DNA of 47,219 nt from Candidatus Bathyarchaeota archaeon (GCA_020351305.1 CP070730.1:1629826-1677044), one strand, 5' to 3'. Positions 10,622 through 45,842 are shown, counted from the stretch's first letter. Translations and numbers: made by a program. Notes: generated by a model from the letters alone, not told the origin.

Positions 10622-11737
10622 ATGTCAAGACTCACCATTCTAGATCAGCCTGATAAAGTCATGGAGATAGACAAGAGTAACATGATTGAGCTGTGCGAAC
10701 GAACTCCATTTTTTTGCGGAGATGCCATCAGACGAGTTGAAAAAATGAAACTGCCCTCCAACTACAGCACACTAAGAAATATCATTGTTGTCGGGATGGG
10801 CGGTTCTGCCATTAGTGGGGAATTGCTTAGAGATTGGCTGTTCGATCAAGTTATGGTTCCTATTCAGATCTGCAAAGACTACGTCTTACCTGCTTATGCT
10901 GATCAAAAGAGCCTTGTTATTGCAGTAAGCTACTCTGGAGAAACGGAGGAGACCTTAAGCTCTTTTTTAGAAGCTGTTAACCGCAATTGTATGGTTCTGA
11001 CAATATCATCTGGTGGGCACCTTCAAGCATTTTCGCAAAAGCTTCGTATTCCTCACATCCTAATACCTACTGGCTTTCCCCCACGCGCTGCAATCGCCTA
11101 TCTGTTATTCCCGCTCATAGTGTTAATGGAAAAACTTGGTATTATTGAAGGGGTAGACGAAGAGATTAAGGAAGCCTTAGATATTTTGGGAAAAGTGAGT
11201 AGAGAAAACGCTCAGTGCATACCTTTAAGAAGCAACAAGGCAAAAAGGCTTGCTTCGGAAATTAAGGATACAATCCCCGTAATTTATGGATTCAGACAAT
11301 ACGCCGCGGTGGCGCGACGTTTGAAATGTCAATTTAATGAAAACAGTAAGGTCCCAAGTAAATTTGATGTATTTTCTGAGCTCAATCACAATGATATTGT
11401 TGGGTGGGAGGCTTCCAAGAATCTTACACAATCTTTTTCATTGATATTTATTCGAGACCCGAAAGAACCCTCAGAGATAAGGCAGAGAATCGAGCTGACA
11501 AAGCAGTTAGTTTCTGAAAAAGTTTCTAGGGTTTTAGAGATTCCAGCATTGGGTGAAATGAAGCTGGCAAAAATGCTTTCAACTGTGTGCATAGGCGACT
11601 TTGTAAGTATATACCTGGCATTACTAAATGGTGTTGATCCGACGCCTACAAAGACGATTACGTATTTGAAGGAAGAAATAATGGCGAAATTGAATATGAT
11701 GAAGAAACTTGAAAAAGAGATTAAGAAAAGGGCGTGA
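10622..11737 (+). CDS. bifunctional phosphoglucose/phosphomannose isomerase
   Basis: Interconverts fructose-6-phosphate with glucose-6-phosphate and mannose-6-phosphate, as established for the archaeal PGI/PMI family. The 371-residue protein has two SIS sugar-isomerase subdomains. The first contains IIVVGMGGSAISGELL and the phosphate-binding VSYSGETEET. The later segment VFSELNHNDIVGWE carries the glutamate and histidine region expected at the active site. The C-terminus (PTPTKTITYLKEEI) is the family's typical end. It is divergent from the SPOUT gene and the first gene of the long plus-strand run. Together with PFK, GAPDH and PGK it fits an Embden-Meyerhof type route. Confidence 0.93.
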   Translation: MSRLTILDQPDKVMEIDKSNMIELCERTPFFCGDAIRRVEKMKLPSNYSTLRNIIVVGMGGSAISGELLRDWLFDQVMVPIQICKDYVLPAYADQKSLVIAVSYSGETEETLSSFLEAVNRNCMVLTISSGGHLQAFSQKLRIPHILIPTGFPPRAAIAYLLFPLIVLMEKLGIIEGVDEEIKEALDILGKVSRENAQCIPLRSNKAKRLASEIKDTIPVIYGFRQYAAVARRLKCQFNENSKVPSKFDVFSELNHNDIVGWEASKNLTQSFSLIFIRDPKEPSEIRQRIELTKQLVSEKVSRVLEIPALGEMKLAKMLSTVCIGDFVSIYLALLNGVDPTPTKTITYLKEEIMAKLNMMKKLEKEIKKRA

Positions 11738-11824: not shown

Positions 11825-13570
11825 TTGCAGAAACCTGACAAATATGAAATCATAAGTGAACTTGCTAGACGTCGAGGATTTTTCTGGCCTTCCTATGAAA
11901 TTTATGGCGGCGCCAGTGGCTTCCTAACCTATGGTCCATTAGGTTCTACACTTAAACGAAAGGTAGAGGAAACCTTCAGAGATTTCTACATCAAACCCTT
12001 CCAAATTCTCGAAATGGAATCTTCTATTGTTACCCCCGCAAGAGTTTTCGACGCGTCAGGTCATGTAAACGCTTTTCGAGAACCTATGGTAGAATGCTCG
12101 AAATGCAAAAGAAAGTTTCGAGCTGACCATCTGCTTCAAGAAAAAGCAAAAATGAGCGACACTGAAACAGAGAAACTTGACCTTAAAGAAATCGCTGAAG
12201 AAATAACGAAACACAGTATAAAATGCCTTGAATGCGGTGAGGAACTAGGCAAGCCCAAATACTTTATGACAATGTTTTCTACAACCATCGGACCCTATTC
12301 GGAGTCAATTGGTTACGGTCGACCAGAGGCTGCCCAAGGTGTTTTTGTCGAGTTTAAACGCCTTTACGAGGTTGCTAGAGAAAGATTACCTATGGGCGTC
12401 GCTCAAATTGGTCATGCTCTGAGAAATGAAATCTCTCCTCGCCAAGGTCCTCTCAGGCTAAGAGAGTTCACCATAGCTGACATTGAGCTCTTTTTCGATC
12501 CGGCAGTCCCCCAATGTCCAATATTGAAGGAGATTGGGAAGGAGACTTTGAGACTCATTCCTGCAAAACTGAAACAAAGAGGTGCCGATAAATTAGTGGA
12601 AGTGACGGTGAAGGAAGCACTTGAAAAAGGTTACATAAGAACAGAATGGCAAGCGTGTTTCATGACGTTGGCTAAACACTTCTTAAACAAACTCGGTGTC
12701 CCAGACGATAAACAGCGTTTCATCGAAAAACTGGATTGGGAGAGAGCCCATTATTCCGCGCAAGGCTATGACCAAGAAATCTACTTAAAACGGTGGGGCT
12801 GGACAGAAGTATCAGGCCATAACTATCGCACAGATTACGATTTAAAACAGCACATGAAACACAGTGGTGTGGACATGCAGGTTTTCAAGGAACATGACAA
12901 ACCTATACTAAAAGAAAAAGTCATTATCGAACCGGTATTGGCTAGAATAGGTCCAACATTCAAAAAAGACTCATCAAAAGTAGCAGATTTACTTCGAAAA
13001 GCTGATGCACGCGAAGTCGAAAAATCTCTTAAAGAGGACGGATACTTCATGTTAAGATCATTTAGAATTATGCCAGATCATGTAAAAATTATCCACAGAA
13101 AAGTAGATGAAACCGGAAGACGGTTCATTCCACACACGGTTGAACCAAGCTTTGGAATAGATAGGCTGGTTTATGTGGTTTTAGAATATGCGTATAGTAA
13201 ACGAGAGGGCAGAACACTTCTGAAACTTCCAAGAGAGCTTTCACCTGTACAGGTGGGAGTCTACCCACTTGTCACAAAGGATGGTTTGGCAGAGAGAGCA
13301 AGGAAGTTACATAGAAATTTGCTGATTGAAGGCTTCGTAGCGGAATACGATGAAGCGGGCTCCATCGGAAGGCGCTATGCTAGAGCTGACGAGGCTGGCA
13401 TCCCTTTATGCATTACAATTGACTATCACACGCTGGACGACGACACAGTGACTATACGAGACCGTGACTCATGGAAACAGGTCCGCATAGAAACTAAATA
13501 CTTGTCAAAAAATTTGAATGCGTATTTCAGCTACAAGAATGAATTCAGAGACATGGGAAAAAGCTTGTAG
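11825..13570 (+). CDS. glyS: glycyl-tRNA synthetase (class II, alpha2 type)
   Basis: Charges tRNA-Gly with glycine using ATP. The 581-residue chain has the expected opening RRRGFFWPSYEIYGGASGFLTYGPLG (motif 1 region), a zinc-binding insert (CSKCKRKF around residue 95 and CLECGEE around 137), the motif-2-like GHALRNEISPRQGPLRLREFTIADIE and motif 3 in PSFGIDRLVYVVLEYAY. A C-terminal anticodon-binding domain (SPVQVGVYPLVT...GSIGRRYARADEAGIP) follows. A TTG start at 11825 gives the family N-terminus; no strong Shine-Dalgarno is visible. Ends with TAG. Confidence 0.96.
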   Translation: MQKPDKYEIISELARRRGFFWPSYEIYGGASGFLTYGPLGSTLKRKVEETFRDFYIKPFQILEMESSIVTPARVFDASGHVNAFREPMVECSKCKRKFRADHLLQEKAKMSDTETEKLDLKEIAEEITKHSIKCLECGEELGKPKYFMTMFSTTIGPYSESIGYGRPEAAQGVFVEFKRLYEVARERLPMGVAQIGHALRNEISPRQGPLRLREFTIADIELFFDPAVPQCPILKEIGKETLRLIPAKLKQRGADKLVEVTVKEALEKGYIRTEWQACFMTLAKHFLNKLGVPDDKQRFIEKLDWERAHYSAQGYDQEIYLKRWGWTEVSGHNYRTDYDLKQHMKHSGVDMQVFKEHDKPILKEKVIIEPVLARIGPTFKKDSSKVADLLRKADAREVEKSLKEDGYFMLRSFRIMPDHVKIIHRKVDETGRRFIPHTVEPSFGIDRLVYVVLEYAYSKREGRTLLKLPRELSPVQVGVYPLVTKDGLAERARKLHRNLLIEGFVAEYDEAGSIGRRYARADEAGIPLCITIDYHTLDDDTVTIRDRDSWKQVRIETKYLSKNLNAYFSYKNEFRDMGKSL

Positions 13571-22696: not shown

Positions 22697-22771
22697 GGGC
22701 GGGTAGATCAGCCTGGAATGATCGCCACGTTGGCATCGTGGAGGCCGCGGGTTCAAATCCCGTCCCGTCCA
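22697..22771 (+). tRNA. tRNA-Ala (GGC)
   Basis: The acceptor is GGGCGGG (22697-22703) with CCCGTCC (22764-22770) and A73 at 22771. The D-stem is GATC/GATC (22706-22709, 22720-22723). The anticodon stem is CCACG/CGTGG (22725-22729, 22737-22741) with loop TTGGCAT, so the anticodon is GGC (22732-22734). The T-arm is GCGGG, TTCAAAT, CCCGT. The third acceptor pair is G3-U70, the alanine identity element. No intron; CCA is not encoded (ACA follows). A TATA-like GCTTAAAGG lies at 22636-22644. The last bases plus flank (22762-22776) recur exactly at 27864-27878. Confidence 0.96.
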
Positions 22772-22883
22772 CAAAACTACGCGAGGCTCTCTGCAACTAT
22801 ATATGAGAGAGGTATGGAAACTAATTCCATAAATCTTATACATAATTTTCTATCATTAGAAATGTCCGAGGGAGGAGGATATT

Positions 22884-23495
22884 TTGAATAAGCGCAATAT
22901 GCTTCATGTTTTTCTTATTCTTGGTTTAATCTGCTTGATTCCATCTGCATTGATTACACTGCCTGGTGAGGCAGATGAATTTAATAATCTTCCACTCCTT
23001 GATGACTTGTATTTTTGGATTATTGGAGATCCTGCTTACGCTCTGCTTAAGGCCCAGTTAGGAGAGCTTGATACGATGCTCATAACTCGCGAAAGTGATG
23101 CAGCTGAGCTCCATGGTAACTATAGTTGGAACATCAGCTACAATCCAGTGCACCATATGTGTTATTTGGGGCTTAACTGTCGAGAAAACCCTCCTACGCT
23201 TGGTCCTGACGAACCATATATGCCCGGTGCCCCTTATGGTAATCGAACTCCCGCTTCTGAACTTTATCCACTTAATGTGAGCACGTTTAGGAATGTTCTG
23301 CATTTCCTTACTGGAGATTTGAAAAGGGATTGGTTGAATGACATTTATGGTCCAGGCATAAACAGGGCATTAGATTCTCTAATCCTCCCCAGTAATTTGT
23401 TCTGGTTTAATACAGACATTGACCCCGTTCCCTATAATGCAACAAAGGCCTTGGAAATTCTAACAGGAGACCTGGGATGGACAAATTCTTCTTGA
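22884..23495 (+). pseudogene. N-terminal piece of an exported solute-binding/CARDB/dockerin protein, cut by in-frame TGA
   Basis: Starts at TTG 22884 after a GGAGGAGG site. The first about 30 residues form a signal peptide (MNKRNMLHVFLILGLICLIPSALI). It continues as part of an ABC-type peptide/solute-binding protein (NRALDSLILPSNLFWF, then YNATKALEILTGDLGWTNSS, the usual end of a family-5 lobe segment). TGA at 23493-23495 stops it. The same frame stays open without another stop through 23846 and into the ORF ending at 27818, so this is one gene of about 1,645 codons broken by one stop codon. It may be a point nonsense mutation, an assembly error or readthrough. Confidence 0.8.
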
Positions 23496-23846
23496 CATTG
23501 GATCACTGACCAAGGACAGGAACTAAGACCAATCTATGTCATCACACCTCAGGAATCTGGCGTAGTAGTTGCCTTCTGTAATTTTGTAGTCGAATCTTGG
23601 AATAACTTCTTTGGTGCTGCCAGCAATGCTTCAGAGTATCATCCTGGAACAAGCAGTGAGGGACTATACTTTCACAATTATGCGATCCCTTTCCAAAATC
23701 TTCTGGAATATGTCTTTCAGAATCGTGATTTCGACATATATTTCCTTTGTTGGGGGCTAAGAAGGAATCCAGATTATCTATACGATTTTTTCCACCCGAA
23801 TTTTGACAAATATAGCTGGGAGGACGAGAGTTATAATACACCGGGA

Positions 23847-26800
23847 TTGACAACTCCAGATGGTCATCTTGAGGCTTGGCTTTACGCGTTAGGAAATTGG
23901 GAGTTCCCAGAAGGCTACTCTGATCCCACCTATGGCACACACATAGAAAATCAAAGTGAAATGAAAATGCTCTGTGATGATATTCAATGGGAACTCCATT
24001 GGCAAACACCCTATATCCCCTTGTGGTCAAGAAACCTCATCATTGGGTATGCTCCAGAATTGGAGGGTTGGACAGATACCTTTCCGCATGATATTGGCAA
24101 TCAATACTCACCTAATTTTTGGGACCTTATAAGGCTCAACTGGAGCGCCACCCAGAAGACATCAGCCAATATACATCAACCCTATGTTCCAAATAATCTC
24201 CATCCGACCCAATATGACAGTTTTTCATATTCAATCAAGGAAGTAATTTTCGATAAGGGCGTACGTGTAAATCCAACCACACAAGAAGATTCTATGTGGT
24301 TAGTGAAAAATTATGCTTTTCAACCCTTCGAAGGGATTAACCCGTTTGGTGAGTACGTAAACGGTAGCCAAATCACTTTCAATCTACACAAACCAGTTGT
24401 CTGGCATGATAGCGAAGTTGCTGACGCATACGACATAAAATTCTGTTGGGACTCCTTAGATGAACATGAGCCCTCAGAATATTCCGATCTGTGGCTGACC
24501 TATGTGAACTCGACGGTAAACTCCCCTACAAGTATAACTGTCTGGCTAAACTCGACTAACAAATGGCTTATTAACGTATACACTGATACAATGTTTCTTC
24601 TTCCTCCTCAGATATACAATGCTTTCACAGGTAACACTACGGCCTTTGAAGCCTTTAGACCATGGGAAGTTGACTATACCAATCACACGGAAAACCCAAA
24701 ACCCGCCGAATACCCCGAGTTAACCTGTTTGATAGGAGTAGGTCCTTACGTTTTTGTCGAGTGGAACACAAGCCTGATCCACCTAACTAAAAACGTGTGG
24801 TATTCGACTTCATTTGATGAATCTCCCCCCTTTATCGAAATTGTGTCTCCACAGAATCTTACCTACCAATCAAGCACTATTCCCCTCTCGTTCACGCTGA
24901 ATGAATCATGCCAGTGGATTGGCTACAGCTTGGATGACAATGAGAACGTAACAATTGGAGAAAATACCACTCTGACAGGATTGTCCAATGGGCCTCATTC
25001 AATCATCGTTTACGCCCAAGATTACTTCGGAAATGTAGGCTCCTCAGATCTAATCTTTTTCACAGTGGATGCAGTAATAGATGAGTCTCCACCTTCCATT
25101 GACGTTTTGTCGCCTGAAAACTCGACATACACAACAAGTTCTATTCCTCTCACATTCGTGTTAAACGAGTCATGTCAATGGATAGGCTACAGCATAGATG
25201 GTGGCACAAACACAACGATTAGTGGGAATACAACTCTCTCGGGATTGTCCAATGGGCCTCATACATTACTGGTTTTTGCCCAGGACCTTTCTGACAACGT
25301 TGGGTCTTCAGGATTAATTGCATTCACGACCAGTGTTGAGACTGATTTGTCACTTCAATCCCCAGACATAACCTATTCTAACGATAATCCAAATGAAGGA
25401 CAAACTGTCACCATTTCCGCAAGAATCCACAACTCCGGAGGCCAAACCTTGAGCAACATTCCAGTTAGATTCCTCGATGGAAACACAACAATCGGGGACC
25501 AATCTATCCCCATAATCTCGCATCATTCCTCAGCCACAACATCGATTAATTGGACTGCTGAGCATGAAGGATTTCACCTGATCAAAGTAATTATCGATCC
25601 AACTAACATCATTAACGAATCATCTGAGGAGAACAACATAGCCACACGTTCACTATTGGTGGGAGAATTTCCCCATTTTGGCACAATAATCTTGAATGCC
25701 ACAGCTCATCCCACCACCATTTTTGTGGGTAACCAAACCACAATTTCTGGGGTAGCCATCTACAACACAACCTATAGCACGGGAGAACCAGTGGCAGGAG
25801 CTGACGTGACAATCTCAATCCCAGGAGGATACCAATACAAAACTCATACCATTTCAAATGGAAGCTACTCTCTAACGATTAGCAGCCCTCACAATGCGGG
25901 AAATTACACAATCACTGTCACCGTCACAGACTTCACATTCTCCACCAATGCACAAGCCGCTCTAACTGTATTGCCCATAATCGGAGTAGATCTTATTCTT
26001 TCCCAAGACGATATCATTCTCGTACCTGAGGAACCAGTTGAAAACGATATCGTGAGCATTATTGCAACGATACATAATGTTGGGACAATCAATGCCACTA
26101 ACGTTCTTGTCTCCTTCTTTGACGATGACTTGTTAATTGGGAATGCAACCATTGGCTTGATTCCCGCTGAAGGTGCAGAACCCGCCTTAGTTAATTGGCT
26201 GGCAAAACCTTCGCGAGATCATGTGATTACCATTATCATTGATCCAGAAAATTCAATTAAAGAGATTAATGAAGAGAACAATGAAGCTTCAAAAGAAGTG
26301 TATGTTTACCCTGCATTACCAGACTTCACCCCAGTAAGAATCTTCTTCTCAGACAGCACACCCACCACAGACGCAGAGGTCACAATTAATGCTGACGTAA
26401 CCAACATTGGGGGCTTGGATGGCCACAATGTTTCAGTCAACTTCTATGACGATGGAAGCCCAATTGGCAGTGTAATAGAGGATGTAATCCCAGGAAAAGG
26501 TGGACTCAGAACCGTTTCTCTAAACTATACTTTTTCGTCAGCTGGCTCCCATATTATCTGTGTGTTTGTGGACGAACCAAATGACATTGCAGAGTCGGAT
26601 GAAGGGAATAACCAGTATTGTGTACTTGTTGTTCCCCATCCACCCCTACCGGATTTAACACTTCAACGGTGGGAAATCACCTTCTCAAACAGCACACCCA
26701 CAGCCGGTGATGAAATCACAATATATGCTCAGATTCGAAACATTGGAGAACAAGCAGCTGCAAACGTTTCCGTAGAATTTTTCGATGGGAGCACAAGAGT

Positions 26801-27818
26801 TGGAGTCGTTACCCTTCTTTCGGTGAATTCAGGGAGTCACGAAGTGGCAAACATACTCTGGAACGCCACTCCAGAAGGATGGCACCAAATAAAGGTCATA
26901 ATCGATGGCAACAACACCATAATTGAGTCAGTTGAAACCAACAATGTTGCCAGTCGATGGCTTTATGCATATCCCGATGTGGCCCCTGATCCAGTTATCT
27001 ACTCTGAGGATATTATATTTTCAAACACAAATCCTGAACCTTCAGAGAGAGTGCTCATCTATGCTACTATCCGCAATATAGGAGATTTAGATGCTCATAA
27101 CATCACAGTCTGGTTCTATGTGGATGACCTGCAATTAGGTGCCCCACATCACATCAGTTTCATACCTGTGGATGGAAATTGGAATATCTCTGCTGAATGG
27201 ATTGCAGTCGACGTGGGCTCTCATGTTGTGAAGGTTCTTATAGACACCCCCTTAGAATCTGATAAGAACAATAATATGGCAACTCGGGCGTTGATCGTTA
27301 GTATTCATGATTTATCAATCATTGACGTCCAGGTTTCCAAAACCATTGTGGGCCAAGGGCAATTCATGAATGTCACAATCACTGTGAAGAACCTTGGTAA
27401 CACAACAGAGACTTTTGACATTAGCCTATTTGCAAATGATGTGATCATGGCTACTAATGAATTCAGTATTGAAGCGGGATTAACTGAGCTCGTTGAATTG
27501 GCGTGGAATACAACCATTTTAGAAAAAGGGAACTATACAATCAAAGCTTACATACCACAAGTCCCAAGCGAAGTGAACTTGTCAAACAATATCCTAGTCG
27601 ATGGCTGGGTCTTTGTAACAATTTTTGGCGACATAAATGGCGACACAATCGTCGACATTACAGATATCACCATGACGATTGCTGCATTTGGCAAGACAAG
27701 CAGTAGCCAGGGCTGGTTTGCTTCTGAATGGTACGCAAATTGCGATGTTAATGACGATGGAAAAATTGACATAACAGATATTACACTCGTCATTAGCCAT
27801 TTTGGGAGCCGTTGGTAG
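23847..27818 (+). CDS. C-terminal 1323 residues of the interrupted solute-binding/CARDB/dockerin protein
   Basis: In frame with the 22884 piece; the TTG at 23847 is only the first possible start after the stop, and the open frame really begins at 23496. The order is: rest of the family-5 solute-binding domain (to about residue 320), two similar Ig-like repeats of about 85 residues (from DESPPFIEIVSPQ and DESPPSIDVLSPE, each with 'LNESCQWIGYS' and 'LSNGPH'), a CARDB domain (about 500-608), a Big/Ig-like domain (611-713), five more CARDB-like domains (from about 713, 825, 935, 1048 and 1156) and a dockerin-like end with two calcium loops (GDINGDTIVDITD and CDVNDDGKIDITD). Many N-glycosylation-like NxT/S sites suggest a surface protein. 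No ABC permease or ATPase gene is nearby, so it may be an adhesive scaffold or polymer-binding protein rather than a transporter part. No C-terminal membrane anchor is seen. Confidence 0.82.
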   Translation: MTTPDGHLEAWLYALGNWEFPEGYSDPTYGTHIENQSEMKMLCDDIQWELHWQTPYIPLWSRNLIIGYAPELEGWTDTFPHDIGNQYSPNFWDLIRLNWSATQKTSANIHQPYVPNNLHPTQYDSFSYSIKEVIFDKGVRVNPTTQEDSMWLVKNYAFQPFEGINPFGEYVNGSQITFNLHKPVVWHDSEVADAYDIKFCWDSLDEHEPSEYSDLWLTYVNSTVNSPTSITVWLNSTNKWLINVYTDTMFLLPPQIYNAFTGNTTAFEAFRPWEVDYTNHTENPKPAEYPELTCLIGVGPYVFVEWNTSLIHLTKNVWYSTSFDESPPFIEIVSPQNLTYQSSTIPLSFTLNESCQWIGYSLDDNENVTIGENTTLTGLSNGPHSIIVYAQDYFGNVGSSDLIFFTVDAVIDESPPSIDVLSPENSTYTTSSIPLTFVLNESCQWIGYSIDGGTNTTISGNTTLSGLSNGPHTLLVFAQDLSDNVGSSGLIAFTTSVETDLSLQSPDITYSNDNPNEGQTVTISARIHNSGGQTLSNIPVRFLDGNTTIGDQSIPIISHHSSATTSINWTAEHEGFHLIKVIIDPTNIINESSEENNIATRSLLVGEFPHFGTIILNATAHPTTIFVGNQTTISGVAIYNTTYSTGEPVAGADVTISIPGGYQYKTHTISNGSYSLTISSPHNAGNYTITVTVTDFTFSTNAQAALTVLPIIGVDLILSQDDIILVPEEPVENDIVSIIATIHNVGTINATNVLVSFFDDDLLIGNATIGLIPAEGAEPALVNWLAKPSRDHVITIIIDPENSIKEINEENNEASKEVYVYPALPDFTPVRIFFSDSTPTTDAEVTINADVTNIGGLDGHNVSVNFYDDGSPIGSVIEDVIPGKGGLRTVSLNYTFSSAGSHIICVFVDEPNDIAESDEGNNQYCVLVVPHPPLPDLTLQRWEITFSNSTPTAGDEITIYAQIRNIGEQAAANVSVEFFDGSTRVGVVTLLSVNSGSHEVANILWNATPEGWHQIKVIIDGNNTIIESVETNNVASRWLYAYPDVAPDPVIYSEDIIFSNTNPEPSERVLIYATIRNIGDLDAHNITVWFYVDDLQLGAPHHISFIPVDGNWNISAEWIAVDVGSHVVKVLIDTPLESDKNNNMATRALIVSIHDLSIIDVQVSKTIVGQGQFMNVTITVKNLGNTTETFDISLFANDVIMATNEFSIEAGLTELVELAWNTTILEKGNYTIKAYIPQVPSEVNLSNNILVDGWVFVTIFGDINGDTIVDITDITMTIAAFGKTSSSQGWFASEWYANCDVNDDGKIDITDITLVISHFGSRW

Positions 27819-27841
27819 CTAATTATTTCGACCACGCAAGC

Positions 27842-27880
27842 TTTAAACGACAGTTTCTATCTAGTCCCGTCCACAAAAAA
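27842..27880 (+). repeat. intergenic repeat, copy A (short form)
   Basis: Contains the shared core AAACGACAGTTTCTATCTA followed by GTCCCGTCCACAAAA. The core opens with a small inverted repeat AAAC-GACA-GTTT. The last 15 bases (27864-27878) are identical to 22762-22776, spanning the 3' end of tRNA-Ala and its flank. It begins 23 nt after the dockerin gene stop. The right half present in copies B and C is missing here. Confidence 0.75.
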
Positions 27881-27982
27881 ATGCGCGCGCAATGAAATAA
27901 CTTCTTATATTTTATCCGTCCAGAATTAAAATCACACCGATATAGAAGTCTCGAAAACTGTGATATAAAGGGATGATTTGAA

Positions 27983-28945
27983 ATGAAGAAGATTGCTGTT
28001 GTCACTAGCGGCGGGGATGCCCCTGGCATGAATGCTGCGATACGAGCGGTTACACGTGTTGCCTATTCAAAGGGATTAAAGGTTGTGGGTTTCCATCGAG
28101 GTTGGGAAGGCTTGATGAAAAACAAGTTTACTTCCCTAACTCCCCGCTCCGTTGGGGGCATTTTAGGGCGTGGAGGAACAATTCTCTACACTGCAAGAAG
28201 CCCAGATTTTAGAACAATAAAGGGCGTTAAAAGAGCTGCAGAAACACTTGCGATGCACCATATCGATGGCCTTGTGGTGATTGGTGGTGATGGCTCTATC
28301 GCTGGTGCTTATGAACTTAGTAAGGAAACCAATACATCAATAGTTGTTGTTCCAGCCTCAATCGATAATGATGTCTTTGGAACAGATGAAACTATAGGCT
28401 TTGACACAGCTGTAAACACTGCAATGACAGAAATCGACAAAATCAGAGACACCGCTATGTCTCATGAAAGAATCTTCATCATCGAAGTAATGGGGCGTAA
28501 AAGTGGCTTCATCGCTTTAACAGCAGGGATAACTGCTGGTGCTGAAGTTATTTTAATCCCCGAAGCCAAGTTCAGAAGAGATGAAATCTTCCGAACAATT
28601 AAGAAAAATGAAGCTAAAGGCAAGAAATCTAGCATAGTCGTGGCAGCAGAAGGAGTAGGTAACAACCGCAAACTTGCAAGAGACATCGAAGAAAATACAG
28701 GGTCAGAGGTAAGGCTCTCCGTACTTGGCTATGCCCAGAGAGGCGGAAGCCCAACAGCTAGGAGCAGACTCTTAGCTTGCCTATTCGGAAACAAAGCTAT
28801 CGAATTGCTTTCGGAAGGGCAAAGGGGCAGAGTTGTTGGAATTCAAAACGGAAAAATAGCGTCCATTAACTTGGAAAAATCCTGCAAAACCAAAAGATTG
28901 CCAGATTTAACTCTACTCCAACTCGCAAATAAGCTAGCAACGTAA
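27983..28945 (+). CDS. pfkA: ATP-dependent 6-phosphofructokinase (bacterial PfkA type)
   Basis: Phosphorylates fructose-6-phosphate to fructose-1,6-bisphosphate. 320 residues, as in bacterial PfkA. Visible are the nucleotide loop VVTSGGDAPGMNAAIR, VIGGDGSIAGAYEL, the catalytic VPASIDNDVFGTDETIGFDTAVN (base Asp in IDND) and IIEVMGRKSGFIAL. The residue after the Asp of GGDG is Gly, and the position before SIDND is Ala rather than Lys, a pattern of ATP-using rather than pyrophosphate-using enzymes (family knowledge; prediction). Most Archaea use ADP-dependent or unrelated kinases for this step, so transfer from Bacteria is plausible. It is flanked by repeat copies A and B. Confidence 0.93.
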   Translation: MKKIAVVTSGGDAPGMNAAIRAVTRVAYSKGLKVVGFHRGWEGLMKNKFTSLTPRSVGGILGRGGTILYTARSPDFRTIKGVKRAAETLAMHHIDGLVVIGGDGSIAGAYELSKETNTSIVVVPASIDNDVFGTDETIGFDTAVNTAMTEIDKIRDTAMSHERIFIIEVMGRKSGFIALTAGITAGAEVILIPEAKFRRDEIFRTIKKNEAKGKKSSIVVAAEGVGNNRKLARDIEENTGSEVRLSVLGYAQRGGSPTARSRLLACLFGNKAIELLSEGQRGRVVGIQNGKIASINLEKSCKTKRLPDLTLLQLANKLAT

Positions 28946-28965
28946 ATATGCGCGTGCAACATACA

Positions 28966-29045
28966 CTTTTAAACGACAGTTTCAATCTATCCCCGTCCAC
29001 CATCCAAAAATGGCATTTAAGGTGTTTTCTGGGGTTTTTTGGGCA
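28966..29045 (+). repeat. intergenic repeat, copy B (full form)
   Basis: Left half: AAACGACAGTTTCAATCTATCCCCGTCCAC region (28971-29000). Right half: 29001-29045, containing CCATCCAAAAATGG and GTGTTTTCTGGGG plus a six-T run and GGGCA. The right half matches copy C base for base. CACC and GGTG can pair across it, followed by T tracts, so it could also act as a transcription terminator for pfkA. A GCGCG motif (28948-28960) precedes it. Confidence 0.85.
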
Positions 29046-29187
29046 AAGAAGCTGCTTAAATCTTGCTTTGAGTTTGCAAGATTCGTGAAAGGTATATCTA
29101 ACCTGACAATTCGGTTAGCTATCTCCCGCATATTCCTTATTCTTTCTCTACAATGCTTATGGAATGATGAATTTTTATTTCTGGGAA

Positions 29188-29199
29188 AGCTTTAAGTAT
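29188..29199 (+). promoter_or_regulatory. TATA-like box before the RHH-like gene
   Basis: AGCTTTAAGTAT lies about 50 nt upstream of the start at 29247. The remaining stretch from 29046 shows only a small hairpin (TCTTGC at 29061-29066 with GCAAGA at 29076-29081). Confidence 0.35.
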
Positions 29200-29246
29200 G
29201 TCTATTACGAAATACCAAATACTGATTACAAATCGAGAGTGAAAAA

Positions 29247-29633
29247 ATGGATGTTGATGTAAACGAAGAAGAGAAAGATGAATGCTGTCCTGAAGGAACC
29301 AAAGATGCTAAGAAAATAATGGTTAAGATGCGATGTCCTGAAGGAGAAGACGCTGATAAAATAAAAGAAAAGGTTCTCATGAAATTAGATAAAGAACTAG
29401 GTGGTCGAACTAACGTAGTAATGACAAGGCTGAATGACGAGGATCTAAAGCAGATAGATGGTCTTGTCGAGATTGAGGCTTTTAAAACGCGATCAGAGGC
29501 AGCTGCTTATTTCATTAAAGAAGGAATAAAGGCTCGCAAAGATTTGTTTCAAAAAGTGATGCCTACAGTTGACAAAATCAAAGAGCTGAAGGAGCAAGCC
29601 AAGAAATCACTCAGCCCAGAGAAGAGTCAGTGA
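29247..29633 (+). CDS. small protein with ribbon-helix-helix-like (CopG/MetJ-type) region
   Basis: A 128-residue protein. The N-terminal 25 residues are acidic with a Cys-Cys pair (EKDECCPEGTK), and a third cysteine is in KMRCPEG. Residues about 57-98 (VVMTRLNDEDLKQIDGLVEIEAFKTRSEAAAYFIKEGI, discontinuous motifs: beta strand, helix, turn, helix) fit a ribbon-helix-helix DNA-binding fold. A charged, lysine-rich helix ends the protein. AGTGA lies 7 nt before the ATG. No target is evident; it could regulate neighbouring genes. The function is not established. Confidence 0.6.
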   Translation: MDVDVNEEEKDECCPEGTKDAKKIMVKMRCPEGEDADKIKEKVLMKLDKELGGRTNVVMTRLNDEDLKQIDGLVEIEAFKTRSEAAAYFIKEGIKARKDLFQKVMPTVDKIKELKEQAKKSLSPEKSQ

Positions 29634-29831
29634 TCAACGGAACAATGTGTCAGCGTCTGTGCGCACATGACAATATCTATGAAAAACTGTTGGTGCTGGA
29701 TTAGTCTGAAACCCGAGAACTCACTTCAGGCGTTTAACGTGAACATAGTTCGCGCCTAGATGCGAATGCTTCTTCTTTGATGGGCGTAACAATTGAGGTA
29801 TAATTGAAAATACAAGAATAAGGTGAGAAAT

Positions 29832-30752
29832 ATGAAAATTAAATTTGGCTTAAAACCAGGGATTAATCACGTTTTCATCCCTGTGTATGTAAATGGTAAA
29901 GGCCCATATAATTTCACGTTGGATACTGGCGCTCAAAAAACAACAATATCTTCAGCTTTGGTAGATGAGCTGGGGCTGGAAACGCAAGAGGCTATAGGAG
30001 AAAAATATGAACATTTGAAGGAAAAGAGGAATCTAAAACGGGTTGAAGCTAGCTTAGGTGTAGGTGCAGAAGAATTAATTTCAGATGAAGTTTGGGCAAT
30101 GGATCTTGTCTTTTCTATTAAGGCAAAAGGAAAGAAAATTATTCAGTCATCTGAAAGCAATGGTAAAGAAGTGAAACGTGTTGCTCAACCAGCTATACGA
30201 AGAATTATCAAAACTACAAAATCAGGTGAAAGAGTGATAGAACCTACTAAAGGAGTGATTGGATATTCTACTTTGAAGAACTACTTCATATCTGTGAATT
30301 ATCGCACTAGAATACTCCAATTAGAAAAGAATAATACAGGTTTCACATACAACAATCAAGAACAGTTGCAGGAATTTGAATACATTTGTAATACTCATCT
30401 AGTTGGGATTCCAGTCACAATAAATGGTGATGGACCATTTCCCTTTGTATTAGACACGGGAGCTGGTGGTACTACAATTAGTAAAAAGTTGCATGAGAAA
30501 ATGGATTTACCATTAAGTGATATTGTAGTCAAAGCTATTGGTGTTCATGGGGCCCAAGAAACTCGCATGGCAATAATAGATCAAATGATAGTTTCATCTA
30601 ATACCTATGAGAATGTTAGTGCTGTTATAATTGATGAAAGCATTATTGGACCACGAGCTAATGAAATCGAAAATGGCATTCTAGGTTACAACATATTCCG
30701 AGATAAAGAATTAATCATTGATTATATCAATCAAACCTGCGCAATAATTTAA
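29832..30752 (+). CDS. two-lobed retropepsin-like aspartyl protease
   Basis: A 306-residue protein with two related halves, each with an aspartyl-protease active-site motif: FTLDTGAQKTTISSALVDELGL near residue 35 and FVLDTGAGGTTISKKLHEKMDL near residue 215. Each half ends with a glycine motif and a closing strand (GVIGYSTLKNYFISVNY and GILGYNIFRDKELIIDY). The single-chain double-DTG layout resembles pepsins or a fused retropepsin dimer, so it may be active as a monomer. No signal peptide is visible, suggesting a cytosolic role. ATG at 29832 is chosen because GGTGA at 29822-29826 is well spaced; a GTG at 29823 overlaps that site. Repeat copy C follows 45 nt after its stop. Confidence 0.85.
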   Translation: MKIKFGLKPGINHVFIPVYVNGKGPYNFTLDTGAQKTTISSALVDELGLETQEAIGEKYEHLKEKRNLKRVEASLGVGAEELISDEVWAMDLVFSIKAKGKKIIQSSESNGKEVKRVAQPAIRRIIKTTKSGERVIEPTKGVIGYSTLKNYFISVNYRTRILQLEKNNTGFTYNNQEQLQEFEYICNTHLVGIPVTINGDGPFPFVLDTGAGGTTISKKLHEKMDLPLSDIVVKAIGVHGAQETRMAIIDQMIVSSNTYENVSAVIIDESIIGPRANEIENGILGYNIFRDKELIIDYINQTCAII

Positions 30753-30797
30753 CAGCATGCCATAAGATAGTTTCAGATCCAAAGAAACAAATGCAGG

Positions 30798-30876
30798 TTA
30801 TAAACGACAGTTTCTATCTATCCCTGTTCACCATCCAAAAATGGCATTTAAGGTGTTTTCTGGGGTTTTTTGGGCA
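30798..30876 (+). repeat. intergenic repeat, copy C (full form)
   Basis: Left half has AAACGACAGTTTCTATCTA and CCCTGTTCAC (one-base variants of CCCCGTCCAC in copy B). Right half is identical to B from CCATCCAAAAATGG through the T run to GGGCA. A GCGCG motif follows at 30899-30913. Confidence 0.85.
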
Positions 30877-30910
30877 TAGGAATTGCATGATTGCCTAAAT
30901 GCGCGCGTGG

Positions 30911-30988
30911 CAGACCTCAAAACCTGGAGAGCGAACGATCACCTTCTAACTTGCACGCGTATCTTCTTAGAATGGTCGTTCAGGTCTG
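30911..30988 (+). other. long imperfect inverted repeat, candidate structured RNA or regulatory element
   Basis: Three nested arms pair in order: CAGACCT (30911-30917) with AGGTCTG (30982-30988); GAACG (30933-30937) with CGTTC (30977-30981); ACC then TTCTAA (30941-30949) with TTAGAA then GGT (30967-30976), with small bulges. The apical loop is about 17 nt, and a 15-nt bulge lies on the left side between the first two arms. It sits in the 380-bp gap between the protease gene and the purP pair. The rest of this gap holds repeat C and a TATA-like CTTATTTAA near 31070. No coding sequence is seen. Confidence 0.5.
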
Positions 30989-31132
30989 GTCTTGTTTGAT
31001 ATGGTTAGCCAGGACCGTGATGACCGCAGCTACTTTCTCTTCCACTGTCTGAGCTGTACGCGTTAGGCTTATTTAATGTCTAGAGCTTTAGTGATGTAAT
31101 GGAAGAATGCAAAACATATTTAGGCGAATAAA

Positions 31133-32230
31133 ATGAACCGTAGGAAGATTCAAGAAATTGTAGCGGATTATGATCCTAAAGAGATTAGAATCGGAGTGCT
31201 TGGATCACACTCGGCCTTGGAAATGGGTTATGGTGCCAAGCAGGAAGGATTCGAAGTAGTTGTTGTTTGCCAAAAAGGAAGAGAAAAAACTTACACAAAA
31301 CACTACAAGAGCCTGTTCGATCATGTCATGCTTCTGGACAATTTCGTGGATGTAATTAGAGAAGAAAACCAAGATATGTTACGAGGATTGGACACTGTTT
31401 TTGTGCCAAACAGATCCTTCTCAGTGTATGTGGGCTATGACAACATAGAAGAGAAATTTTCAGTCCCCCTTCTGGGGAATAGACACATGCTCAGAAGTGA
31501 AGAAAGAGATGTACTGAGAAACCAATATTACTTGCTGAAAAAGGCCGGCATAAAGACTCCTAAAATCTTCAGCTCGCATGAAAAAATAGACAGACTGGTG
31601 ATAGTAAAAGTTCTTGAAAAAGATCGGAAAATAGAAAGAGCCTTCTTTTACGCTTCTTCTCTCGAAGAATTCGAGAAAAGAGCTGACGAGAGAATAAAGA
31701 GGGGAACAATTGACATTAAAGACTTGGAAAGAGCAATAATAGAAGAATATGTCATGGGAGCCAAGTTTAACGCTAACTATTTCTGGTCTCCAATAACCGA
31801 CGAAATAGATTTGCTAGGATTTGACAGAAGAATACAAACAGATTTGGACGGTGTTTTGGATTTACCAGCTGATGAACAATTGGAGGCGAAGGTATCAACA
31901 CAAAATGTCGAAATAGGACACATAGGAGCTACTATGAGAGAATCCCAATTAGAGAAGATATTCGAAGCTGGAGAAAAGTTCGTTGAGCTCTGCAAAAAGG
32001 AATATCCTCCTGGGATAATAGGCTTATTCGCTTTACAGGGAGCCATGACAAAAGATTTGGAGTTTTATGTTTTTGATGTGAGCCCAAGAATCCCTGGCTG
32101 CCCCTGCGTAGAATCCACTTCTCCCTATATGAAGTACAAATATGGCAAAGAGGTAGGCCCAGGGAGAAGGGTTGCAATAGAGATCAAGCAAGCAATTGAG
32201 AAGAAAAAGCTTGAGATGATAGTTACATGA
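31133..32230 (+). CDS. PurP-like ATP-grasp protein, divergent paralogue
   Basis: A 365-residue relative of PurP (FAICAR synthetase). Conserved family features are RIGVLGSHSALEMGYGAKQEGFE near the N-terminus, FVPNRSFSVYVGYD, VPLLGNRHMLRSEE, the central EEYVMGAKFNANYFWSP, DLLGFDRRIQ and the C-terminal YPPGIIGLFALQ and YVFDVSPRI. At the ATP-grasp glycine loop, where the downstream paralogue has LPGARGGKGYF, this protein reads LEKDRKIERAFF and has lost the glycines. It may be a non-catalytic partner or use a different substrate. It overlaps the next gene by 4 nt (ATGA), so the pair is translationally coupled. Confidence 0.85.
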   Translation: MNRRKIQEIVADYDPKEIRIGVLGSHSALEMGYGAKQEGFEVVVVCQKGREKTYTKHYKSLFDHVMLLDNFVDVIREENQDMLRGLDTVFVPNRSFSVYVGYDNIEEKFSVPLLGNRHMLRSEERDVLRNQYYLLKKAGIKTPKIFSSHEKIDRLVIVKVLEKDRKIERAFFYASSLEEFEKRADERIKRGTIDIKDLERAIIEEYVMGAKFNANYFWSPITDEIDLLGFDRRIQTDLDGVLDLPADEQLEAKVSTQNVEIGHIGATMRESQLEKIFEAGEKFVELCKKEYPPGIIGLFALQGAMTKDLEFYVFDVSPRIPGCPCVESTSPYMKYKYGKEVGPGRRVAIEIKQAIEKKKLEMIVT

Positions 32231-33312
32231 TTACAAAAAGGGAAATAGATGATATCCTAAGGGAATACCAAAAGGGAAAAATCACAATAGGTACACTTGG
32301 ATCACATTCAGCGCTAAATATTTTCAAAGGGGCAAAGGAAGAAGGCTTTGAGACAGTTTGCATCTGCAGGAAGGATGATGAGATCATTTATCGAAGGTTT
32401 CCTCTGGCAGACGAGATTGTACTAGTTGAGAACTTCAGTGAGATTTTGTGTGATGATATCCACCAGAGACTAAGGCAGACAAACACAATATTGATTCCAC
32501 ACGGTTCCTTCAACGCCTACATCGGTGCAGAAAAAATAAGGAACGAGCTGCATATTCCACTTTTTGGTAACAGAGAGCTTCTACAATGGGAGACTGACAG
32601 AGAAAAGCAGAGAGAGTGGCTGCAAAGGGCAGGCTTAACATTACCTAAAACCTTCAAGAATTCAAATGACATAGAGGGGCTGGTCATCGCAAAGCTTCCT
32701 GGGGCAAGGGGTGGAAAGGGATACTTTCTAGCGAATTCTTCGGAGGCCTTTCATAAAAAAGCAGAAGACATGATCAAAAGAGGCCATTTGCGAAGAGAAG
32801 AGCTGGAAAACATACATCTCCAAGAGTACACCCTAGGAGTGAATGTTTATCCCCAATATTTTCATTCACCCCTCAAAAACGAAGTGGAGTTGTTAGGAGT
32901 AGATAAGCGATACGAGTCTGCAGTAGATAATCTGGGCCGAATACCTGCAAGCGAACAGCTACAACTTCCCTCGAATCCCACGTACACAGTTATTGGCAAC
33001 ATCCCGATAACTCTGAGAGAGTCACTTCTGCCAGAGATTCTCAGGATGGGAGAGAATGTAGCAAAAATGTCCAAAGAAATCGCTCCACCAGGGATCATTG
33101 GACCATTCTGTTTAGAAACTGTCATTACAGATGAGTTGGAGGTTTTCACCTTTGAAATATCTGCGAGAATAGTTGCGGGAAGCAATGTTGGCATTGGGAC
33201 TTCTCCTTATGCCTATCTAAACTATGGCGAAGGAATGTACATGGGCAGAAGGATTGCTAGAGAGATTCAAATTGCGATTAAAAATGACGAATTAAGCAAA
33301 GTTGTCTATTAA
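32227..33312 (+). CDS. purP: FAICAR synthetase, PurP family
   Basis: Formate- and ATP-dependent conversion of AICAR to FAICAR in archaeal purine synthesis, replacing the formyltransferase half of PurH. 361 residues with TIGTLGSHSALNIFKGAKEEGFETVCICRK at the substrate-binding start, LIPHGSFNAYIG, the intact ATP-grasp loop AKLPGARGGKGYFLA near residue 158, LQEYTLGVNVYPQYFHSP and the acidic metal-binding region EVFTFEISARIVAGSNVG. It is the second gene of a tandem pair with a degenerate paralogue. Its position between repeats C and D, rather than in a purine operon, is notable. Confidence 0.88.
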   Translation: MITKREIDDILREYQKGKITIGTLGSHSALNIFKGAKEEGFETVCICRKDDEIIYRRFPLADEIVLVENFSEILCDDIHQRLRQTNTILIPHGSFNAYIGAEKIRNELHIPLFGNRELLQWETDREKQREWLQRAGLTLPKTFKNSNDIEGLVIAKLPGARGGKGYFLANSSEAFHKKAEDMIKRGHLRREELENIHLQEYTLGVNVYPQYFHSPLKNEVELLGVDKRYESAVDNLGRIPASEQLQLPSNPTYTVIGNIPITLRESLLPEILRMGENVAKMSKEIAPPGIIGPFCLETVITDELEVFTFEISARIVAGSNVGIGTSPYAYLNYGEGMYMGRRIAREIQIAIKNDELSKVVY

Positions 33313-33331
33313 CTTATTGCGCGTGTGGCAG

Positions 33332-33392
33332 CTTTTTATCTATCCCCCTTTGCTTCTAGAAATTAGATTTTGAGGTGTTTTCTGGGTTTTTT
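33332..33392 (+). repeat. intergenic repeat, copy D (diverged)
   Basis: Begins 20 nt after the purP stop. It shares ATCTATCCCC and GAGGTGTTTTCTGGGTTTTTT with copies B and C, but the middle differs and the AAACGACAG part is lost. It is preceded by TTGCGCGTGTGGCAG (33317-33331), close to the motif beside copy C. Confidence 0.6.
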
Positions 33393-33445: not shown

Positions 33446-34510
33446 ATGAGTTCACTTGGAGAACGCGGTATTCCGAGGTTTAGAGTAAGAACTATTGAAA
33501 GCCCACCATATACTGTCGACCGATCTAGACTTCGTCGTTTCAACAGCAAACAGATAGTTTTTGATAGAATAACATGGGATTCGTCATGGAAAGGTTACAT
33601 GTGCATGTATGATGAACATGTTCTTGAGATGGTTTCAGAGGGGAAACCTGGCTATTCGCGACTTGACTTCGCACTGGCTTATGCTTCTTGGATAGTTCAC
33701 GATGCTTTTGAAGGCGGATTTTCATGGAAGAAAATTAAATTGAATAGAACCCCAGTTGCTACCATTGGAATCGATTGGACAAAACCGAGATATGAAGCTG
33801 ACGATCCACATAAAATAAGTAACCATATCAAGCGAGCAGCAAACCTTTTTGGCGCTTCACAGGTCGGAATCTGTAGACTCAACAGAGACTGGATATACGC
33901 AGACGCCGATATTTCTGAGAAGTTTGAGAATGTTATTGTCTTTGCAGTGGAAATGGATGCAAATGGGATTGCAGCTTCTCCTGCTGTCCCGGCAGCAGTT
34001 GCTACAGGATTAGGATATTCCAAAATGGCATTCATACTTGCCTTGATGGGAGAATTCATTCGGAATCTAGGATATGAAGCGCTTCAGTGCGGCAATGACA
34101 CTGCTTTAAGCATCCCACTCGCGATTGACGCTGGGCTTGGGGAACTAGGTCGTAATGGCTTGCTGATAACACCTAAAAACGGCCCCAGAGTTAGACTCTG
34201 CAAGATATTTACAGATCTTCCTTTGGAATCTGATACGCCCATAGAGTTTGGTGTAAAGAAATTCTGCAAGAAATGTAAGTTGTGTGCTGAAAATTGTGAG
34301 ACGGATGCAATTTCAATGGACGACGAACCTAGCTTTGAAATTGCATGTAGATCCAACAATCCAGGGGTATTGAAATGGTATGTTGATGTAGAGCGATGCT
34401 ATCTATATTGGTGCGAAAACGGGATTGACTGCTCAACATGCATAAAAGTCTGTCCATATAACATCGCATCAAGCCCACGCCCTGCACGAGACACTGAAAG
34501 AAAACTATAG
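33446..34510 (+). CDS. soluble reductive-dehalogenase-like corrinoid/iron-sulfur protein
   Basis: A 354-residue protein resembling RdhA reductive dehalogenases, with more distant similarity to epoxyqueuosine reductase. Family features are FGASQVGICRLNRDWIY, the substrate/corrinoid core 'AIDAGLGELGRNGLLITPKNGPRVRLCKIFTDLPLE', a first ferredoxin-type cluster CKKCKLCAENC near residue 275 and a second cysteine set CYLYWCENGIDCSTCIKVC near residue 312. The Tat signal of respiratory RdhA and a membrane-anchor gene (rdhB) are absent, so it is probably cytoplasmic. Whether it removes halogens or acts on another substrate is unknown. ATG 33446 follows a GGTG site (33434). Confidence 0.82.
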   Translation: MSSLGERGIPRFRVRTIESPPYTVDRSRLRRFNSKQIVFDRITWDSSWKGYMCMYDEHVLEMVSEGKPGYSRLDFALAYASWIVHDAFEGGFSWKKIKLNRTPVATIGIDWTKPRYEADDPHKISNHIKRAANLFGASQVGICRLNRDWIYADADISEKFENVIVFAVEMDANGIAASPAVPAAVATGLGYSKMAFILALMGEFIRNLGYEALQCGNDTALSIPLAIDAGLGELGRNGLLITPKNGPRVRLCKIFTDLPLESDTPIEFGVKKFCKKCKLCAENCETDAISMDDEPSFEIACRSNNPGVLKWYVDVERCYLYWCENGIDCSTCIKVCPYNIASSPRPARDTERKL

Positions 34511-45181: not shown

Positions 45182-45706
45182 CTAAAGCCGTGATAGCTTC
45201 TTCTTTACGTAGCCAATACGTGTTATATCAGAAAGTTTGACCAATTCTAAGATTGCTTTTGCTGGGATGTCTAATTGCTTAGCCAGTTGTTCACGCTGCT
45301 TCTTTGTTTTTCCATTTTCAAGCATTTGTTCAACGTTCCTTATGCCGAAAGCTGCAAGTTTCTTAGCATGATCTTGATTTATGTTTAGGAATTCTTTGAT
45401 AGGGAAGATCCTTCTCGTCTTCTTTGTTCTTTCATCTCTAAGCGTGTTTGCATGTCGCAGTAGATCTTTGTCGCCGAGGAAATGGAAATAATTCATTAGG
45501 ACATATAAGTAACCCTTTGCTGATTGTTTTCTGGCCTCAATTTCTGCAACAAAAGCATCTATATCATCTGTCTCTGCATCATCAAGATTTTTCTCTCTCT
45601 TCTCAAGCAAATAGGAAATGAAATCCTTCAAAACCTGTACATTTCTATCTACCACAGCTAGCTTTTTTCCTCTTCGTTTCAAATATTTCCTAAATTCTTC
45701 TTCATT
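45182..45706 (-). CDS. helix-hairpin-helix (DUF4332-like) protein, interrupted by TAG
   Basis: About 174 residues from MNEEEFRKYLKRRGKK (ATG 45706; a further in-frame Met at 45739 is possible). The N-terminal half is helical and resembles the SAM-like core-binding fold of site-specific recombinases (VVDRNVQVLKDFISYLLEKREK ... YLYVLMNYFHFLGD), without a catalytic domain. The second half has helix-hairpin-helix features (HAKKLAAFGIRNVEQMLENGKT, AILELVKLSDITRIGYVKKKLSRL). It stops at TAG while the frame and the homology continue to 45005. Family members of this build are frequent in uncultured archaea; their function is unknown. Confidence 0.75.
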   Translation of the reverse strand, partial: NEEEFRKYLKRRGKKLAVVDRNVQVLKDFISYLLEKREKNLDDAETDDIDAFVAEIEARKQSAKGYLYVLMNYFHFLGDKDLLRHANTLRDERTKKTRRIFPIKEFLNINQDHAKKLAAFGIRNVEQMLENGKTKKQREQLAKQLDIPAKAILELVKLSDITRIGYVKKKLSRL

Positions 45707-45842
45707 CATCTTCTGACCACATGAATTTCGTTTTACCATTTATTACTGCTTGGAGAAGATGTACATGTGCAATTAAAGCAATTCTATTCATGCGACTAGT
45801 TGCGCAATGTTGATGAAAAATGCGTATGCGTGCGCTTCAGGA

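Follow-up and report, generated by a model that had tools for sequence, protein, structure and literature searches.

Intergenic repeats behind a tRNA-Ala gene of a Bathyarchaeota archaeon as probable attachment sites of stacked, integrase-less gene cassettes

Four copies of an intergenic repeat (A to D, positions 27842 to 33392) punctuate the gene blocks downstream of a tRNA-Ala(GGC) gene in a 47,219-nucleotide stretch of a Candidatus Bathyarchaeota archaeon genome (GCA_020351305.1, CP070730.1:1629826-1677044; hereafter the window), and we consider it very probable that they are attachment sites of small integrative gene cassettes that carry no integrase, use tRNA 3' ends as entry points and accumulate there. 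Bathyarchaeia are abundant sediment archaea whose gain of metabolic genes is little understood. The window belongs to a single-contig genome of 1.87 Mb that groups with Bathyarchaeia, and the closest named homologue of its pfkA gene comes from a Candidatus Bathyarchaeota metagenome-assembled genome. With a recurrent site composed of an arm and a tRNA end, gene capture could be read off any genome of the order, and cassettes, their order and their cargo could be listed automatically.

Anatomy of the repeat and its link to tRNA-Ala

An earlier note, made from the window alone, had placed the copies at the ends of successive gene blocks and described B and C as near-identical. All four copies were found there on the plus strand, each starting 20–45 bp past a stop codon, and B (28967-29055) and C (30798-30886) proved 91% identical over 89 bp, with right halves that are, as the note had said, the same base for base from ACCATCCAAAAATGG through GGGGTTTTTTGGGC (>40 bp). 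Copy A (27842) has only the left half in common (84%), and copy D (33333-33392) combines a weak left half with the T-rich right half (~74% over 61 bp). A search of the whole genome with copy B returned only A to D at E < 1 (pairwise E of 3e-26 for B and C, about 1e-5 to 1e-7 for the other copies), which makes the repeat a local one, well above what chance would give.

The tRNA-Ala(GGC) gene (22697..22772, plus strand; ARAGORN; Rfam RF00005, 57.9 bits) is intact and would be the anchor of the array (attB/attL side). The 15-bp core GTCCCGTCCACAAAA, which spans its 3' end and first trailer bases (22762..22776, plus strand), is repeated exactly in copy A, where 27864-27878 is identical at 15/15 bp. 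Site A (27840..27878, plus strand) consists of the arm TTTAAACGACAGTTTCTATCTA and this core, site B (28966..29004, plus strand) of the arm and the core CCCCGTCCACC, and site C (30797..30835, plus strand) of the arm and the core CCCTGTTCACC, with two core mismatches; a sequence-only model of the site, R1, scores them at 35.0 (nhmmer), 41.4 and 34.8 bits, respectively. Site D (33322..33392, plus strand), at the far end of the array, is a decayed site (GGCAGCTTTTTATCTATCCCCC) followed by a trailer-like right half, and is not detected by R1. TGCGCGYG-type motifs also lie near all four sites (27882-27892, 28949-28956, 30900-30908 and 33319-33326).

Among 62 tRNA 3' ends with their trailers, the best match of copy A was the window's own tRNA-Ala, and that of copies B and C was the tRNA-Ala and trailer of a relative (G003, locus L007). 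Taken as the maximum over all tRNAs, the match was borderline for A (p 0.05) and significant for B and C (p ≤ 0.003), and copy D gave no tRNA-end signal in this test. Given the best match of B and C, an old tRNA-Ala trailer is the likely source of the AAAAATGG...GTGTTTT...GGTTTTTTGGG part carried by B, C and D, and their T-rich right half (29005..29045 in B and identical in C at 30836..30876, both on the plus strand, and like the G003 trailer) is probably a displaced tRNA trailer. Agreement between the core and CCCGTCCAC drops with distance from the tRNA gene (A 9/9, B 9/9, C 7/9, D 5/9), as would follow from the farthest site being the oldest. The earlier view of the left half of A to C as a decayed tRNA 3' end stands in part: the tRNA likeness is real, but the half is a conserved recombination-site arm and not just a decayed tRNA end.

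Recurrence of the site behind tRNA genes

We searched 163 genomes of the order with copy B at the DNA level; its left half was present in other families, two matches lay near tRNA genes, and lenient searches gave further copies behind tRNA-Ala in two sister genomes (G007 and G008). Running R1 over the same set, with up to 10 kb on each side of the sites examined, gave about 38 strong sites, and dozens of genomes from several families have such sites. Their layout is a constant arm (consensus TTTAAACGACaGTnTnAAnCTA) followed by a variable end that equals or is close to a tRNA 3' end, and the arm is frequently preceded by a second unit, giving direct repeats (CGACgGTTTAAA / CGACaGTnTnAAnCTA). 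All arm-only matches above 12 bits in the loci examined were sites (28/28). Position statistics were based on the 46 sites scoring at least 15 bits: a same-strand tRNA gene lay within 10 kb upstream of 28 (p about 5e-15 with the chance rate taken to be 0.12 per site), compared with 3/46 for a downstream and 11/46 for an opposite-strand tRNA gene, and in this majority the site follows its tRNA at a distance of 0.66–10 kb.

Moreover, the variable end matches the particular tRNA next to it, be it Ala-GGC, Ala-TGC, Leu, Phe, Met or Ser (permutation p < 2e-4). The mean match of the core to the neighbouring tRNA was 9.68 vs 6.61 (sd 0.41) in permuted pairs, with 0/5000 permutations as high, and 10.25 vs 6.87 when each genome contributed one site. 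Because the seed alignment contains tRNA ends, the test was repeated on loci outside the seed that were supported by the arm only, and these pairs (n = 10) gave 9.70 vs 6.62 permuted (sd 0.72; 0/5000 as high). Site ends of this kind include CCCCCCGCAC behind tRNA-Leu in G079, GCCCTCGGCACCAAATAACCTTA behind tRNA-Phe in G109, CTCCCCGCTACCAA behind tRNA-Met in G030 and CCCGGTCCACCA behind tRNA-Ala(TGC) in G014; G140 has its own variant, CCTCGTCCACCA. As in the window, the target tRNA genes are intact in the paired loci.

Presence and absence of cassettes between relatives

In G008 the tRNA-Ala gene is followed by a GNAT gene, a site (a), a DUF362 gene and a second site (b), and in G007 by the GNAT gene and a single site. 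The two genomes align at 97% identity until position 11223 of the G008 locus (L100), within site a, and the alignment resumes at 12394, within site b; both breakpoints fall inside sites, and the two genomes differ here by exactly one 1.17-kb cassette. In G109 a tRNA-Phe end runs directly into its trailer, and in G110 the same end and trailer (78 bp, 95%) stand behind an arm. G109 and G110 have another cassette end in common over 103 bp, followed by different flanks, that of G109 resembling the trailer of its tRNA-Leu. The crossover would lie in the arm in one event and at the core edge or the terminal GCAC in others. Together with the arm joined to a tRNA end and the recurrence of the site in the order, the G008/G007 cassette supports the reading favoured by the earlier note, in which modules accreted serially behind the tRNA.

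Proposed mechanism

We propose that each cassette would carry one asymmetric site at its right end, in which a constant arm (consensus CGACgGTTTAAACGACaGTnTnAAnCTA, two direct repeats) comes first and is followed by a mimic of a tRNA gene 3' end (acceptor strand, discriminator, and CCA or trailer). A recombinase provided in trans would join this site either to the 3' end of a tRNA gene or to the site of a resident cassette; insertion would leave the tRNA intact and shift the displaced tRNA end and its trailer to the far side, and repeated insertion would build arrays of the form tRNA, cassette, site, cassette, site. The window array would accordingly be read as tRNA-Ala(GGC), a solute-binding/dockerin gene, site A, pfkA, site B, a ribbon-helix-helix (RHH) and a protease gene, site C, a purP pair and the decayed site D. 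The sites, their association and match with tRNA genes and the precise presence or absence of a cassette are observed; circular intermediates, a tyrosine recombinase acting in trans and the order of insertion are what we infer.

Several observations weigh against this mechanism. A profile made from integrases of the family detected no tyrosine recombinase within the cassettes or beside them. About 40% of the sites have no tRNA gene within 10 kb upstream, many of them near contig ends, and the breakpoints vary by event (in the arm for G008/G007, at the core edge for G109/G110). Copies B, C and D carry one trailer, whereas plain serial integration predicts the host trailer at the last site only. 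Elsewhere in the family, pfkA and the purP pair are found without any site that could be recognised. Lastly, no empty site was seen for the window's own array, because the comparison set includes no close relatives from its genus.

Whether these cassettes amount to an integron-like gene-capture system of the Bathyarchaeia themselves seems to us evenly balanced. Such a system would use tRNA genes as platforms and a chromosomal or virus-borne recombinase in trans, with the arm and tRNA mimic of each site steering a cassette to its tRNA, and it would have shuffled phosphofructokinase, purine ligase and deoxyhypusine synthase genes across the order. We found no description of such a system in the open-access literature (subscription papers and preprints were not covered). 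From the recurrent site one would also expect a recombinase able to accept many different tRNA ends by way of a single arm, a DNA-joining specificity that would be new and possibly usable as a tool; the site may be one reason why bacterial-type genes, pfkA among them, occur singly in these archaea.

Alternative explanations

A possible but rather unlikely alternative is that the repeats derive from ordinary tRNA-targeting elements (of SSV/pNOB8 type, or islands resembling integrative and conjugative elements, ICEs) that lost their integrase, decayed and accreted as cis-mobilisable remnants. Tandem accretion and integrase loss are documented for cis-mobilisable elements (CIMEs; PMC5704250), and the relative G002 has an SSV-type integrase with the tRNA-Ala(GGC) attachment (att) sequence contained in its N-terminus. 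However, none of the paired cassettes examined has an integrase, the arm motif is absent from the G002 att, and the many single-gene units of 0.66–1.4 kb with a common arm across families are not predicted by independent decay. The G002 integrase open reading frame (ORF; L103, G002:C1:510114-510851) begins with 49 bp antisense of the tRNA-Ala(GGC) 3' half, showing that an ordinary integrative element in this family uses tRNA-Ala as well.

It is quite improbable that the repeat is a transcription terminator or 3'-processing element placed after stop codons and multiplied by local duplication, although the copies start 20–45 bp after stop codons on the coding strand, B, C and D have a T-rich right half (TTTTCTGGGGTTTTTT), and this half resembles a tRNA-Ala trailer that may itself be a terminator. 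The strong form of this idea, a terminator family spread over the genome, which the earlier note had held open, fails because the genome has no copy beyond the four. Copy A lacks the T-rich half, relatives conserve the arm and the tRNA end but no common T-run, the cassette genes of G007 and G008 lie on the opposite strand, and the match of the core to the neighbouring tRNA is left unexplained. The T-rich right half may nonetheless also terminate transcription. Local tandem duplication or gene conversion of an intergenic spacer with an incidental tRNA likeness would fit the identity of the B and C right halves over >40 bp, but is highly improbable, since other families and other tRNA genes show the same combination of arm and matching tRNA end, backed by the permutation tests.

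Comparison with known mobile systems

Pfam searches of ten cassette proteins gave no integrase, and weak recombinase matches at two loci (L244, 87-1283, and L187) lie outside cassettes. About 12 kb past the array, a 185-aa DUF4332 protein (window 45182-45739, minus strand) has a weak Phage_int_SAM_1 match (E 3e-4) and might be an integrase-like fragment. Like tDNA islands (Islander type, PMC4383910; SSV/pNOB8-type in archaea), the cassettes insert at tRNA 3' ends and leave the tRNA intact, their far end is marked by a displaced tRNA fragment, and tandem insertion is possible. Such islands carry an integrase and are usually larger, whereas the cassettes often hold one gene, with no integrase found, and have one constant arm whichever tRNA is hit.

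The cassettes resemble integron cassettes and clusters of attC sites lacking integron integrases (CALINs), including those of archaeal integrons (PMC9668308), in forming rows of small units with one recombination site each, in the recombinase acting in trans (as proposed here) and in their presence or absence at sites; single-ORF cassettes of 0.66–1.4 kb and the G008/G007 difference are integron-like traits. Unlike integrons, they are anchored at a tRNA gene and have genes in either orientation, with no attC fold (z-scores 0.3 to 1.4, one of -1.8; no common long hairpin), no RYYYAAC...GTTRRRY layout and no R''/R' box layout in the site alignment. Neither intI nor attI was found in the window or the array loci, although no dedicated intI search was made of the whole genome. 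The archaeal integron paper (PMC9668308) makes no mention of tRNA or Bathyarchaeia in its main text. CIMEs of the ICESt1 type are likewise att-flanked, without recombination genes and accreted behind a target gene, and can be mobilised with a related element (PMC5704250); they are, however, decayed ICEs or integrative and mobilisable elements, unlike the recurrent compact gene units described here with an arm common across an order.

Casposons, too, insert at tRNA 3' ends and are bounded on both sides by short target-like repeats, but the cassettes have no terminal inverted repeats, the arm not being consistently found inverted at cassette left ends; no Cas1 was among the cassette families shown, in searches that were not aimed at Cas1. 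Cryptic integrated elements of Thaumarchaeota (PMC6563490) are similarly archaeal, of unknown kind and diverse in cargo, but range from 2.6 to 98 kb, include integrase genes in the maps described and have no reported common arm. A viral origin of the arm found no backing, as two degenerate arm patterns had no match in viral contigs, and a 19-mer match (L123) reads as chance inside an apparent RNA phage coding sequence. A CRISPR repeat remnant, considered for GTTTCAATC..., is disfavoured: the arm occurs once per cassette behind tRNAs. Weak matches to the T-rich half in relatives were mostly within genes and were read as chance.

Cargo of the cassettes

The cargo, which the earlier note took to look accessory, is patchy among relatives, as seen for pfkA, the protease and the purP pair. 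Cassette 2 carries pfkA (ATP-dependent 6-phosphofructokinase, TIGR02482; 27983..28945, plus strand), which G008 has and its sister G007 lacks. No synteny was found in relatives for the tRNA-Ala region, nor for pfkA with the window; two relatives have a pfkA neighbourhood in common with each other. Cassette 3 encodes a small RHH-like protein (29247..29633, plus strand; no Pfam match and a weak NCBIfam match) and a two-domain clan AA aspartic protease (29823..30752, plus strand; GC 0.352) with no close homologue in 12 other genomes of the family, and in codon use and GC it is mainly this protease module that stands out. The purP pair of cassette 4 (two DUF1246/DUF1297 formate-AICAR ligase paralogues, 31133..33312, plus strand) is 88/81% identical to that of G011, well above the 65% of gatE, which suggests transfer between lineages; no repeats were found beside purP in relatives.

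Cassette 1 (22777..27841, plus strand) holds a solute-binding/CARDB/dockerin gene (22884-27818) whose frame is broken between two ORFs (22884-23495 and 23847-27818) separated by a gap of ~350 bp. Its two SBP_bac_5 profile matches occur in reversed order, with the later half of the profile in the first ORF. Just past site D, at 33446-34510, the window encodes a reductive-dehalogenase-like protein (TIGR02486, 197 bits).

Across the order, the smallest cassettes between tRNA and site measure 0.66 kb and the largest about 10 kb; short ones (0.66–1.4 kb) usually have one ORF, and the cargo families include cupin, O-methyltransferase, PIN, GNAT, DUF362, deoxyhypusine synthase, a 4Fe-4S protein, a nucleotidyltransferase and a QueG-like protein, the last of which is carried in G017 by a cassette of the tRNA-Ser type. 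In L232 (G125:C196, 91-753), the 662 bp inserted between tRNA-Ala and a site contain no ORF of at least 80 aa and are possibly a gene-less cassette. In G003 (L161, G003:C1), an antisense fragment resembling a tRNA 3' end (GGGATTCGCACCCCCACCAACGTGG) lies ~150 bp upstream of purP1, which is truncated there.

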